Below the pieces are notes generated by a model, which worked only from the letters and a program-made list of their open reading frames with translations, was not told the origin of the DNA and made no database searches. Shown one piece after another: positions 28,484 to 32,329 of a stretch of DNA of 64,000 nucleotides. The DNA comes from Bacteroidales bacterium (lineage in GTDB: Bacteria; Bacteroidota; Bacteroidia; Bacteroidales; Muribaculaceae). The translations under genes and the position numbers were made by a program. The stretch spans positions 1 through 64,000 of the forward strand of contig CAJTFH010000009.1 in the NCBI GenBank assembly GCA_910575545.1, written 5' to 3'. Position 1 is the first letter of the stretch. Every line of letters starts with the position of its first letter.

Positions 28484-29689
28484 TTATTCTTCAAAGAATA
28501 TGGGGATATTGGCGAGGAATGTGTCGGGAGAGGATAGGAGTGGGCGGTTTGCAATCAGGTCGCTCAGGAGGATGTCGCCGATTACATAATTGCTTTCGTC
28601 GGAGATGTATTTCTCGCGGATGCGGGTGAATGGCAGTAGCGATGGGATATCTGTGGTTGAATAACGCACATAGACTCGTAGTGTTATATCTGTCGAATAC
28701 TCCGGACGGTCGGGATAGGCCATTTTTTTGTATTCATACCGGTAGTCGTGCTGCCTGGCCATAATGTCGCTGAGAATTGATGATGCGGTAGGAAGGCTCC
28801 CCGCACCTTTCCCGAACATGAATTGCCGGTCGTAGCACTCGCCGCGTATAACAACGCCGTTGTATTCGTCGTCAACGCTGTAGATATAGCGTGAAGGGCT
28901 GACGAATTCAGGCATAACGAACATTGTGAAAGTCAATGGTGACACCTTCACAACCTGGGCAACGAGTTTGATTTTCACACGTTTCTCGCGTGCATACCGT
29001 ATGTCGGAATCATGGATATTGGTGATGCCATAAGTGAATATGTCTGTAGGGGGGACATAGACGCCGAGAGCGTGGACGGTGATGATTATCAGCTTGAACA
29101 GTGAGTCGAACCCCTCGATGTCGAAGGAGGGGTCGCTTTCGGCGAATCCGAGCTGCTGGGCGCGGCGGAGTGCTTCGTCGTAGGGTTCCCCATGGTCGAA
29201 CACACGCGACAGGATGTAGTTCGACGAACCGTTGAGTATTCCTTTCACTTCAAGCAGCAGGTCGTTGTCGTAGTATTCCTCAAGGTTGCGGATTACGGGA
29301 ATCGAGCCGCAGGATGATGCATCGTAGAGCAGTGCGGTGTTGTGTCGTCTCTGTAGAGCTATGAGTTCGGGCAGATGCCTGGCTATCATGGCCTTGTTGC
29401 CGGAGACCACCGGTATGCCGCGCCGCAGGGCTGATGTGACTATGCCATAGGATGCTTCGGCGTTGTCGACTACCTCCACAATCAGGTTTATATCGGAGTC
29501 AAGGAGGATTTCGTCGGGATTATCAGTGAGTATCGAGCTGTCTATGCTGATGTCACGCGGCTTTGTCAAGTCGCGCACGCATATGCGCTTTATCTCGGCA
29601 TGGGCGTTTTTGGCACGGGCCATGACGCTCACGATTCCTTGTCCGACTACTCCTAGCCCGAACAACCCGATGTTGATGTTTTGTTGCAT
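28484..29689 (-). CDS. hom: Homoserine dehydrogenase
   Basis: A 401-residue monofunctional enzyme that reduces aspartate semialdehyde to homoserine, the branch point to methionine and threonine. The NAD(P)-binding loop GLFGLGVVGQGIV opens the protein; SGNKAMIARHLPEL, the catalytic-core KGILNGSSNYILSRV, GFAESDPSFDIEGFDSLFK (split across 150 to 215) are typical. A short C-terminal part follows without a clear ACT domain. It is the last gene of metY-metX-hom, 7 bases after metX, so homoserine supply is tied to methionine demand. Confidence 0.96.
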   Translation of the reverse strand: MQQNINIGLFGLGVVGQGIVSVMARAKNAHAEIKRICVRDLTKPRDISIDSSILTDNPDEILLDSDINLIVEVVDNAEASYGIVTSALRRGIPVVSGNKAMIARHLPELIALQRRHNTALLYDASSCGSIPVIRNLEEYYDNDLLLEVKGILNGSSNYILSRVFDHGEPYDEALRRAQQLGFAESDPSFDIEGFDSLFKLIIITVHALGVYVPPTDIFTYGITNIHDSDIRYAREKRVKIKLVAQVVKVSPLTFTMFVMPEFVSPSRYIYSVDDEYNGVVIRGECYDRQFMFGKGAGSLPTASSILSDIMARQHDYRYEYKKMAYPDRPEYSTDITLRVYVRYSTTDIPSLLPFTRIREKYISDESNYVIGDILLSDLIANRPLLSSPDTFLANIPIFFEE

Positions 29690-29696
29690 AAGATGG

Positions 29697-30713
29697 TTAT
29701 TGGGATAACATGAACGGGGTTAGTATTTCGTTGAGTTGCGAGTGTTCCACCAGGAAGCCGTCGTGGCCGAATGGGGAGGATATTTCACGGTATACCGCTC
29801 CCGGAATCCTGGCGGCAAGCTGCCGCATTTCCGGCGGAGTGAAGATTATATCCGTGGTCAGACCTATGACTATTGTGGAGGCAGTGATGCGCTGCAGGGC
29901 GTTGTCAACTCCTCCACGGCCACGGCCCACATTGTGGGTATCGAATGCATCGAGTATGGCCACGTATGAATAGGCGTTGTAGCGGCGGCAGAGTTTTTCG
30001 CCTTGGTATTGTTGGTAGGAACATGCCCGATGGGTCTGTGGCAGCTGGTCTGACGGGTTTTGCTGGGTGATGTTGTAGCCGTCAGGCCCCCGGTAGGTCA
30101 GCAGCCCGATTGCTCGTGCGGCTGCCAGACCGGCCATGGCTGCGTCGGGTCGATGTTCGCCATATGTCTTGTCAGCGAGGATTGCCATGCGTTGGGTTTC
30201 GTCGATAGCTATAGTCCATGGCGACGCTTTTGCGTCGGTGGCGATTAGAATCAGTTTGTCGAACCTGGAAGGCTCTTCGACAGCCCATTCTGTTGCCTGG
30301 AAACCACCCACGCTGCTCCCCACCAGGGCATGGATTCTTCCTATGCCGAGGCTGTCGGCGAGGAGGGCATGGGCATGAGCCATGTCGCGGATGGTGAACC
30401 GTGGAAAATCATTGTAGTATGGTTTTCCGGTGTTGGGATTAACGGATAGCGGCCCTGTGGTGCCGTAGTGGGATCCAAGGATGTTTGCGCACACCACAAA
30501 CCATTTGTTTGGGTCGAGGAAGCATCCCCCCTCAACTGTGTGTGGCCACCAGTCGGCCACGTCGCTGTTGGCGGTGAGGGCATGGCAGACCCACACAACG
30601 TTGTCGTGTGAGCTGTTGAGTGTGCCGTATGTGTGGTAGGCGATGGTCAACTCCGGCAGTTCCCCTCCGAGTTCGAGGGGGAACGGGTCGGAGTGTCGGT
30701 AATATTGTGTCAT
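29697..30713 (-). CDS. metX: Homoserine O-acetyltransferase
   Basis: A 338-residue alpha/beta-hydrolase-fold enzyme that activates homoserine with an acyl group from acyl-CoA for methionine synthesis. Marks are TYGTLN near the start, VVCANILGSHYGTTGP, the nucleophile elbow VGSSVGGFQATEW with the catalytic Ser, and the late Asp and His (GHDGFLVEH). A TTG start at 30764 would overlap metY by 29 bases and adds residues unlike the family; the ATG at 30713 begins MTQYYRHSDPFPLELG and leaves a 22-base gap. Acetyl rather than succinyl is inferred from the partner MetY, which uses O-acetylhomoserine. Confidence 0.95.
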   Translation of the reverse strand: MTQYYRHSDPFPLELGGELPELTIAYHTYGTLNSSHDNVVWVCHALTANSDVADWWPHTVEGGCFLDPNKWFVVCANILGSHYGTTGPLSVNPNTGKPYYNDFPRFTIRDMAHAHALLADSLGIGRIHALVGSSVGGFQATEWAVEEPSRFDKLILIATDAKASPWTIAIDETQRMAILADKTYGEHRPDAAMAGLAAARAIGLLTYRGPDGYNITQQNPSDQLPQTHRACSYQQYQGEKLCRRYNAYSYVAILDAFDTHNVGRGRGGVDNALQRITASTIVIGLTTDIIFTPPEMRQLAARIPGAVYREISSPFGHDGFLVEHSQLNEILTPFMLSQ

Positions 30714-30735
30714 GTTTGCCTTTGCAGTGGGGATG

Positions 30736-32022
30736 TTATTCAACGTGTGTGAATGCCTGTTCAAAGTCGTCGATTATATCGTCGACATCCTCAAGCCCGA
30801 GTGATATTCGGAGGAGTGTCGGGGTGACACCGGCGGCTTTGAGATCGGCTTCGCTGAGCTGTTTATGGGTTGTTGAGGCCGGATGGGTCACAACTGTTAT
30901 CGAGTCGCCGATCATGGTCATGTGGGCGGCGAGTCTGAGAGCCTCGACAAACCTTACGGTGCTTTCGAGTGAGCCTTTCAATTCAACATTAAGCACAGCC
31001 GATGCACCGTGGCGGAAATATTTCTTTGCGTTTTCATAGCCGGGATGGTCCGGGAAGCCGACATAGCTGACCCTCTCTACTTTCGGATGGTTTTTGAGAT
31101 GCTCGGCCAGAAGGCGGGTTGATTCCACTTCGTGGCGCACGCGCAGTGAGAGGGTTTCGAGACCGAGCGCCATAAGGTAGCTGTCGAAGGCCGACGGTGA
31201 TGCACCAAGGTCGCGCAGTCCGTCAACACGGCATTTCACAATGAAAGCTGCGTTGCCGAATGCTTCGTAGAGGTTTAGTCCGTGGTACCCTTCCGACGGG
31301 CCGTCGATTCCAGGGAATCTGCCGCAATCCCAAGGGAAATTACCTCCGTCTATAATCACACCACCCATCGCGGTGCCGTGGCCGTTAATCCATTTTGTGG
31401 CCGAATCGACAACGATGTTCGCGCCCCAGTCGAAGGGGTTGCACAGATATCCTCCCGCACCGAAAGTGTTGTCGACAATCAGGGGCACGTTGTTTTCACG
31501 GGCTACTTTGGCAATCCCCTCGATGTCGGGAACTATGCATGTCGGGTTACCCATGCTTTCGATAAACATGGCGCGGGTGCGGTTATCGATGAGCGATGCG
31601 AAATCTTCGGGTGATTCAGAAGGTGCGATTCTTACTTCGATGCCGAGGCGGCGCAGGGTGTGGCGGAACTGGTTGTATGTGCCACCGTATAGAAACGGTG
31701 AGGCCACTATGTTGTCGCCGGCTGAAGCAAGGGCCGTTATGGTAATCAGTATCGCAGACATGCCTGAAGCTACCGCTAATGCTCCTACTGCGCCGTAAAG
31801 GGCTGCTATGCGCTCTTCATAGGCAGAAGTTGTTGGGTTCTGGAGGCGGGTGTAGATGTTGCCACCTTCAGACAGTTCAAACAGACGGGCTGCATAATCG
31901 CATGTCTTGAACCGGTAGGCTGCAGTGGGGTAGATTGCCATGCCGCGTGAACCTGTCGGTTCGGCAGGATTAAGTCCGGCATGAATCTGGCGTGTGGCAA
32001 AACGAAGTTTATTGAAATCCAT
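30736..32022 (-). CDS. metY: O-acetylhomoserine sulfhydrylase (aminocarboxypropyltransferase)
   Basis: A 428-residue PLP enzyme that makes homocysteine from O-acetylhomoserine and sulfide. It has the family start FATRQIHAGLNPAEPTGSRG, YTRLQNPTTSAYEERIAAL, the PLP-Lys in DSATKWINGHGT and the late SLGLEDVDDIIDDFEQA. It is the first gene of metY-metX-hom. The transcript begins about 270 bases upstream and carries a Met-rich leader ORF and a strong hairpin, a likely attenuator. Confidence 0.96.
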   Translation of the reverse strand: MDFNKLRFATRQIHAGLNPAEPTGSRGMAIYPTAAYRFKTCDYAARLFELSEGGNIYTRLQNPTTSAYEERIAALYGAVGALAVASGMSAILITITALASAGDNIVASPFLYGGTYNQFRHTLRRLGIEVRIAPSESPEDFASLIDNRTRAMFIESMGNPTCIVPDIEGIAKVARENNVPLIVDNTFGAGGYLCNPFDWGANIVVDSATKWINGHGTAMGGVIIDGGNFPWDCGRFPGIDGPSEGYHGLNLYEAFGNAAFIVKCRVDGLRDLGASPSAFDSYLMALGLETLSLRVRHEVESTRLLAEHLKNHPKVERVSYVGFPDHPGYENAKKYFRHGASAVLNVELKGSLESTVRFVEALRLAAHMTMIGDSITVVTHPASTTHKQLSEADLKAAGVTPTLLRISLGLEDVDDIIDDFEQAFTHVE

Positions 32023-32094: not shown

Positions 32095-32142
32095 TTATAG
32101 ACAGACGGCTTTCGCAGTGTTGCGGAAGCCGTCTGTCTATAA
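32095..32142 (-). terminator. Attenuator-like hairpin in the metY leader
   Basis: Two 22-base arms (32142 to 32121 and 32116 to 32095, minus strand) pair at 21 positions around a 4-base loop ACAC. It lies between the leader ORF stop and the metY ATG. The part CGGCTTCC of its 5' arm (32124-32131) is an exact complement of GGAAGCCG at the end of the leader ORF (32173-32180), giving a possible alternative fold. No U-run follows, so termination, if it occurs, may be Rho-linked or unusual. Confidence 0.65.
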
Positions 32143-32165
32143 GGTCAATATGATATATGACAATT

Positions 32166-32267
32166 TTACACCCGGCTTCCTCGGTTGCACATGCACATCA
32201 TCTCCATCATCATGCCTTGTGGCTTGATGTTAATTGGCAAGTTATATGCAGGATAGAGATTAGCCAT
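32166..32267 (-). CDS. Met/Cys-rich leader peptide of the metY-metX-hom operon
   Basis: A 33-codon ORF (ATG at 32267, TAA at 32166-32168) lies in the transcribed leader of the methionine operon. Residues 19 to 27 read MMMEMMCMC: six Met and two Cys in nine codons. The last codons, GGA-AGC-CGG, contain the sequence that can pair with the 5' arm of the downstream hairpin. A ribosome slowed at Met codons would leave this segment free; one that reaches the stop would cover it. This is the classical attenuator design, so the peptide itself probably has no function beyond being translated. No ribosome binding site is obvious, as is usual in Bacteroidota. Translation is inferred, not shown. Confidence 0.75.
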   Translation of the reverse strand: MANLYPAYNLPINIKPQGMMMEMMCMCNRGSRV

Positions 32268-32298
32268 AGGTGTTTGGCGTTTTGTTATTAATTTCTTG

Positions 32299-32329
32299 CA
32301 AAGTTAATCGTTTTCTTCAAATCTGCAAA
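32299..32329 (-). promoter_or_regulatory. Promoter of the metY-metX-hom operon
   Basis: On the minus strand a TTTG (32326-32329) is followed after 19 bases by TAACTTTG (32299-32306), a full Bacteroidota promoter. The start site would be near 32293, about 26 bases before the leader-peptide ATG and about 270 before metY. The gap 32023-32353 is accounted for by this promoter, the leader ORF and the hairpin. Confidence 0.82.

Follow-up and report, generated by a model that had tools for sequence, protein, structure and literature searches.

Organization of the locus

The window, that is, the whole analysed stretch of 64,000 nucleotides of contig CAJTFH010000009.1 from a Bacteroidales bacterium of the Muribaculaceae, contains on its minus strand the methionine genes metY-metX-hom. 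The gene metY (30736-32022) encodes O-acetylhomoserine aminocarboxypropyltransferase (TIGR01326, 560.9 bits against a cut-off of 495.1), metX (29697-30764) encodes homoserine O-acetyltransferase (TIGR01392, 336 bits, E 2.5e-100, under the model cut-off of 500) and hom (28484-29689) encodes homoserine dehydrogenase (NF004976, 300.1 bits against a cut-off of 205). These identities were assigned using NCBIfam models. Reading of the minus strand revealed a promoter, a Met-rich ORF and a strong hairpin in front of these genes, the hairpin being located between an upstream chloride-channel-like gene and metY.

The promoter (32299-32329, minus strand) consists of TTTG at 32329-32326, a spacer of 19 nt and TAACTTTG at 32306-32299, an arrangement which we take to be the Bacteroidales promoter consensus. 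Direct reading found it exactly where the first-pass annotation of this DNA had placed it. The leader ORF (32166-32267, minus strand; MANLYPAYNLPINIKPQGMMMEMMCMCNRGSRV) comprises 33 codons (33 aa and a stop codon), and its translation contains the block MMMEMMCMC at 32213-32187, as had also been reported. The tail of the ORF, GGAAGCCG (32173-32180, minus strand), is the putative antiterminator strand. It was claimed earlier to be an exact complement of CGGCTTCC (32124-32131, minus strand), and this was borne out for all eight positions (32180-32173 with 32131-32124). According to covariation and folding, the latter strand is shared: the terminator-type hairpin takes its 5' arm from it, and the ORF tail pairs with it. 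A search of the window with Rfam at the gathering score gave zero matches, including none to the covariance models for SAM riboswitches and T-boxes.

Distribution of the leader in related genomes

The window MetY was searched against 198 genomes of the family and against the genome_contigs collection (one genome per species, best 80 loci). In the family sample, 17 of the 20 near-full-length metY orthologs with at least 70% identity were preceded by a Met-rich ORF and then a hairpin; the leader was absent at L015, L019 and L022. A partial MetY match, L025, also has the leader, and two further partial matches (L023 and L024) were left unjudged. Among the best 80 genome_contigs loci, those that were near-full-length with at least 70% identity (L033-L055) had the leader in 6 of 23 cases and lacked it in 17. 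Two of these six, L036 and L041, are titled Alistipes. Note that another of the six, L033, has the same match place as L004 and corresponds to G073 of the window's family; its record names Porphyromonadaceae bacterium UBA7042 (Porphyromonadaceae), a group which presumably belongs to Muribaculaceae in GTDB.

Two alignments were built. The first (A1) contains 23 leaders found in front of metY before any model was made, the choice resting on a short ORF rich in Met/Cys and on a tail resembling GCCGG. The full alignment (A2) contains 40 distinct leaders, the remaining 17 having been chosen with a model containing the terminator pairs. Because the leaders were selected partly by these features, the presence of a Met-rich ORF, a tail and a terminator in all 40 is not independent evidence. 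Excluded were rows duplicating others (L118, repeating L034; L120, repeating L049; other model-derived loci repeating those of the MetY search) and rows judged to be non-leaders (L165, L170, L171 and L172).

A covariance model containing the terminator pairs only (R1) was run on 397 genomes of the family using Infernal with stricter filters. It gave 38 matches at E ≤2.2e-6, one of which (L165 in G329) was rejected, no such leader being found there on reading; 37 leaders in 36 of the 397 genomes were accepted. Judged by position, all 37 precede methionine genes, namely metY (30), metX directly (6) or a MetY-like gene (1). This last gene, encoding a PLP enzyme in G264, passes no NCBIfam cut-off shown, and the same genome also has a copy of the leader before metX. 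Weaker R1 matches among those listed, many of which cover the terminator part only, were excluded from the counts. At an E-value of 0.01, R1 found no match in 22 loci taken as leaderless (L015, L019, L022, L024, the 17 genome_contigs loci and L059), the best value being 0.11.

In G308 (L123, G308:C12:6621-9738, after 1618), an intact leader is followed by a metY that an internal deletion has reduced to a 106-aa frame, with metX directly behind it. A fragment in G182 (L168/L176, G182:C1:139800-143000, near 2010) resembles a leader in its Met codons and shares its tail with L035; the stretch matched by the model lacks a terminator, and the large ORFs listed near it at L176 are on the opposite strand. 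Possibly a remnant, it is not among the 40 leaders.

Occurrence more widely in the order was rejected: R1 run on 295 genomes gave strong matches only in the window's family (G000 and G022). Three of the weaker matches were judged to be non-leaders: the ATG-rich stretch in G431 is an acidic C-terminus in another frame, which ends there, that in G421 overlaps the end of a longer frame, and G681 has no short ORF. A further copy in the window's own genome was also rejected, since only the match in the window was strong among the three R1 matches listed. Three other ATGATGNNNATGATG sites are present in this genome, one within a frame of at least 369 codons and two at the starts of ORFs of 39 and 32 aa.

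The Met-rich ORF was found at the same place in relatives, an outcome in favour of the first-pass proposal. Internal Met makes up about 20% of residues, with 3-10 per ORF in the 40 leaders, Met richness having been one selection criterion. For L163 and L025, the ORF was taken from an upstream ATG that is possibly not the real start, and the leaders of L035 and L141 end at a contig boundary. The element TANNTTTG was found no more than 220 nt upstream in 34/40 leaders, two of the six misses having almost no upstream sequence; TTTG was present 17-23 nt before TANNTTTG in 20/40 (raw count).

Terminator-type hairpin

The terminator-type hairpin (32095-32142, minus strand) is supported by folding and covariation. 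The fold of 32141-32096 contains 16 + 4 bp with one C/A mismatch, and its energy is -32.4 kcal/mol (z -10.7 against 200 shuffles). The hairpin of the first-pass annotation is thus real; its length of 22 bp was amended to 21 bp, the outer U-A pair included. In the window, the lower part of the stem could still pair when the upper 5' arm is bound by the tail.

As had been noted from the start, no U-run follows the stem in the window. Over the 18 nt that follow the core of the 3' arm, the longest T run has a length of 1, and a terminator scan found no terminator. A U-run of at least four follows the stem in 35/40 leaders; five, including the window, have no run of four. In the window species, the ORF, the tail and the spacing are kept, the U-run is absent and the stem flanks are extended instead; L025, the sister of the window and its nearest relative on the tree, retains the U-run TTTTTCTTT. 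Termination is therefore the least certain step in the window species. The short T run, the empty scan and the intact run of L025 could indicate that the output in the window is something other than intrinsic termination, with the long hairpin acting via Rho, pausing or mRNA stability, or that the switch is decaying. This explanation is considered unlikely, as the ORF, the tail pairing and the spacing of the window are intact, and four other leaders also have a U-run shorter than four, so that its loss may be tolerated variation.

Alternative pairing and covariation

Folding of the window transcript cut before the 3' arm showed that the 8-nt pairing between the ORF tail and the 5' arm is formed; the fold as a whole had a z of -1.94, and 9/200 shuffles were equally good. 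In A1, 89.9% of 207 terminator cells were paired and 31 cells were changed on both sides, compared with 12.4 in shuffles. For the tail with the 5' arm, 78.3% of 249 cells were paired, with 23 cells changed on both sides against 9.1 in shuffles, and there were 16 further pair types, a number matched by 76/500 shuffles. Both pairings dropped when slid by 1 to 3 columns.

In A2, the alternative pairing was present in 83.5% of 394 cells (21-49% in slid controls); 7/10 pairs were changed on both sides, a level reached by 2/500 shuffles, and 19 further types were found, reached by 0/500. The terminator was paired in 89.5% of 354 cells (26-54% in slid controls), with 18 further types (1/500 shuffles) and six pairs changed on both sides, a level met by 69/500 shuffles. 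In columns 56-60, the three strands can pair both ways in 35-40 of the 40 rows, and in the four flanking columns in 14-30. The terminator and the antiterminator are therefore mutually exclusive, both covarying with the common 5' arm in columns 115-125. RNAalifold applied to columns 1-130 reported the helix of the tail with the arm as the only helix.

A tree of MetY/MetX was constructed for 39 leaders; L162, with neither gene in its stretch, was left out. Independent contrasts on supported branches revealed no opposite changes for the pairs 54/125, 56/121, 125/144 and 116/151, the contrasts being too few for significance. The first-pass annotation had named covariation in the hairpin and in the alternative pairing as a check on its proposal; it was present in both, in the 23-leader as well as the 40-leader alignment. 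The recurrence of the ORF, the tail pairing and the hairpin in relatives with compensatory changes indicates that the pattern in the window is more than chance.

Geometry of the leader ORF

Measured from its first base, the final Met codon of the block is 14 nt ahead of the alternative strand in 36/40 leaders, the others having 13, 13, 17 and 18 nt. The count falls to 35/40 when an additional Met within the L012 tail is included. The end of the stop codon is located 10 nt past column 56 in 33/40 leaders and at or before column 56 in 4/40. A ribosome with a Met codon in the A site covers approximately 12 nt beyond that codon. Given the 14-nt spacing, a ribosome stalled at the last Met codon would end just short of the tail, and a ribosome at the stop codon would cover it. 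By geometry, most of the 40 leaders thus fit a leader attenuator, in which a stall would free the antiterminator strand and a ribosome at the stop codon would mask it. The fit of Met codons, tail and stop that had been described for the window holds, its spacing being intact.

Then, truncated leaders were folded with masking up to the front edge of the stalled ribosome. The helix of the tail with the arm had a probability of more than 0.5 in 39/40 leaders. The exception, L010, has the core pairs, yet its alternative pairing was below 0.1. Note that in the state with the ribosome at the stop codon the probability of this helix is zero by construction.

Candidate protector hairpin and cysteine codons

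Column pairing points, with moderate support, to a third hairpin in the end of the ORF, absent from the first-pass annotation. This candidate protector (32167-32189, minus strand) would pair 32189-32183 with 32173-32167, part of the stop codon included. In the alignment, it would join columns 34-37 and 48-49, in the codons that follow the Met block, to columns 59-60 and 62-65, in the tail and the stop codon. In the 40 leaders, 89.5% of 239 cells were paired; three pairs were changed on both sides (79/500 shuffles as high) and 11 further types were found (24/500). The outer pair, column 34 with 65, is UA in 18 leaders, CG in 10, UG in 5 and other in 7 (n = 40). The association between these columns gave a Fisher p of 0.008 (38 rows, U/C by A/G, uncorrected for kinship), and tree contrasts gave on average 3.2 changes in the same direction, 0.2 opposite and 3.6 with no difference. 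Against the protector, RNAalifold does not recover its helix in the 40-leader alignment, and the fold of the window's own ORF end is no better than shuffles (z -0.04). When truncated leaders were folded unmasked, 29/40 favoured the alternative pairing. RNAalifold gave no helix joining the Met block to the sequence after the stop (columns 1-100), and such a pairing was rejected.

The protector columns bear on the suggestion in the first-pass annotation that charged Cys-tRNA is sensed as well as Met-tRNA. At least one Cys codon is present in 34/40 leaders and none in 6/40, and the name of the MetY family model includes cysteine synthase activity. However, the last Met of the block is followed by Cys in 20 leaders, by Arg in 16 and by another residue in 4 (n = 40), and the conserved run of Cys codons expected of a cysteine attenuator was not found in the 40 leaders. 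In addition, the base that distinguishes UGC from CGC covaries with the stop codon (the Fisher test given above), which suggests RNA pairing as the cause. Since the choice of a Cys or an Arg codon is linked to that of the stop codon, the Cys codons appear to serve pairing, and the sensing of Cys-tRNA is now regarded as improbable.

Proposed mechanism

The comparison of the leaders establishes the ORF, the Met block, the spacing, the terminator-type hairpin, the alternative pairing and the gene context. On these sequence grounds, the element before metY-metX-hom is very probably a trp-type ribosome-mediated transcription attenuator for methionine. The attenuator reading of the first-pass annotation is supported, both points on which sequence comparison bears, the conservation of the ORF and the covariation, having come out in its favour.

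In the proposed mechanism, RNA polymerase would start at the promoter and a ribosome would translate the leader ORF. We infer that charged elongator Met-tRNA is the signal. When it is scarce, the ribosome would halt at the Met block with its front edge just before the ORF tail; the freed tail would pair with the 5' arm of the terminator, the hairpin would be blocked and metY-metX-hom would be transcribed. When it is plentiful, the ribosome would reach the stop codon and cover the tail, and the terminator hairpin would form, with termination presumably following in the cell. Without a ribosome, the weak hairpin formed by the codons after the Met block with the tail and the stop codon may sequester the tail, in favour of termination, like the 1:2 hairpin of trp.

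Arrest peptides of the TnaC type exist, and the tail peptide is often alike (xRxSRV), so the C-terminus might itself stall the ribosome on free methionine or SAM rather than on uncharged tRNA at the Met codons. Such peptides call for C-terminal amino acids conserved regardless of the RNA, which were not found in the 40 leaders: the tail residues vary (RSRV, RQRRM, RPNRM, RMVRV, SDRS), and the usual tail peptide is missing in the four leaders whose stop ends at or before column 56. Three of these (L013, L141 and L167) still form the alternative pairing when folded; the fourth, L010, does not. An arrest peptide is therefore considered highly unlikely. That the hairpin, lying between the chloride-channel-like gene and metY, is a plain terminator of this upstream gene with an accidental Met-rich ORF can practically be dismissed, as a promoter separates the gene from the ORF, and relatives repeat all three elements, the ORF, the hairpin and the pairing, in front of metY or metX.

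An attenuator reading Met codons raises a question that is particular to this amino acid, namely how a translation-dependent switch copes when methionine is also needed to start translation. Methionine is special in that a lack of it starves initiation as well; the switch must therefore answer rightly even when the leader is poorly translated.

Other candidate leaders upstream of metY

In six loci whose titles name Alistipes, Rikenellaceae or Avirikenella, metY was seen to follow a different uORF, ending in MRMCR (L038:2845-3000, L039:1824-1975, L045:2830-3000, L048:2838-3000, L055:2840-3000 and L059:2863-3000). The sequence ATGCGAATGTGCCGNTAGGCAC is invariant across the six but for one base. 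GUGCC-GNUA-GGCAC has the stop codon of the uORF in its loop and is followed by stretches that look like hairpins by eye. A cmscan of L038, L048, L055 and L059 gave no Rfam match to this element. When 295 genomes of the order were searched for MRMCR, four matches in three genomes were obtained and taken for chance (the context being the first following ORF). The uORF is possibly another Met/Cys leader switch, independent of the first; if true, the presence of an unrelated leader before metY in Rikenellaceae-type genomes would mean repeated use of leader peptides in Bacteroidota.

In L059, a SAM-I riboswitch (RF00162, 60.5 bits) was found at 2682-2777, upstream of the uORF, which may give this metY two consecutive sensors. 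In L095 (Mucilaginibacter), a short ORF ending in NCLCMCCCR, with its end at 2855, precedes metY and is a candidate Cys-rich leader.

Significance and comparison with known systems

SAM riboswitches, T-boxes or repressors are usually regarded as the regulators of methionine genes. With a conserved leader reading Met codons directly, this Bacteroidales family would have a sensor of its own, in line with the count of RF00162 (SAM-I), which was found in 0/198 family genomes with stricter filters; in a control search, it was found in 3/14 known genomes. A broader view is conceivable, and we offer it as tentative: that the locus holds a complete Met-tRNA-reading attenuator whose last codons and stop codon are both protector and antiterminator strand, and that, if the Rikenellaceae-type leader is a second and unrelated one, Bacteroidota repeatedly use leader peptides where SAM riboswitches are used in other phyla.

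The SAM-I riboswitch (S-box) controls methionine genes by premature termination. The present leader would share with it the control of methionine genes, but no aptamer match was found at the window leader. The leader-peptide attenuators of trp, his, thr and leu have a run of codons for the product of the pathway and a terminator before the first gene. Among the matches listed in the open PMC literature, none was recognised as a leader attenuator for methionine biosynthesis. Most likely, the mechanism is a classic one, and a complete Met-codon switch before methionine biosynthesis genes was not found in the literature searched.

The metL leader of S. lividans, located before metNIQ, contains Met and Cys codons and was proposed to be Met-dependent, a typical Rho-independent terminator being reported as missing (PMC8079986). 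That system is actinobacterial and belongs to a transporter operon, whereas here a full switch is proposed before biosynthesis genes. Actinobacterial cysteine leaders, as reported in PMC1262725, have a Cys run near the stop codon and no conserved terminator hairpin. They resemble the present leader in concerning a sulfur amino acid and in having the codon run near the stop, and differ from it in that a Met block and a terminator-type hairpin are found here.

Within the phylum, a Flavobacterium paper gives clues for leader attenuation before amino-acid operons (PMC9723704), and a Bacteroides transcriptome paper describes leader-like sORFs in long 5' UTRs (PMC7366714); in the relevant main text of both, no methionine leader is named. 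A 2010 comparative survey by Lopatovskaya and colleagues, as cited in PMC4833913, could contain related predictions.

A close likeness is to the trp, his, thr and leu leaders, with which the proposed switch shares the codon run, the stall that would expose an antiterminator strand, the stop position that would cover it and a terminator-type hairpin before the first gene. It differs from them in having no Rfam match in the window, in a candidate protector that includes the stop codon, in its Met codons and Bacteroidales host, and in an antiterminator strand that lies inside the last codons of the ORF.
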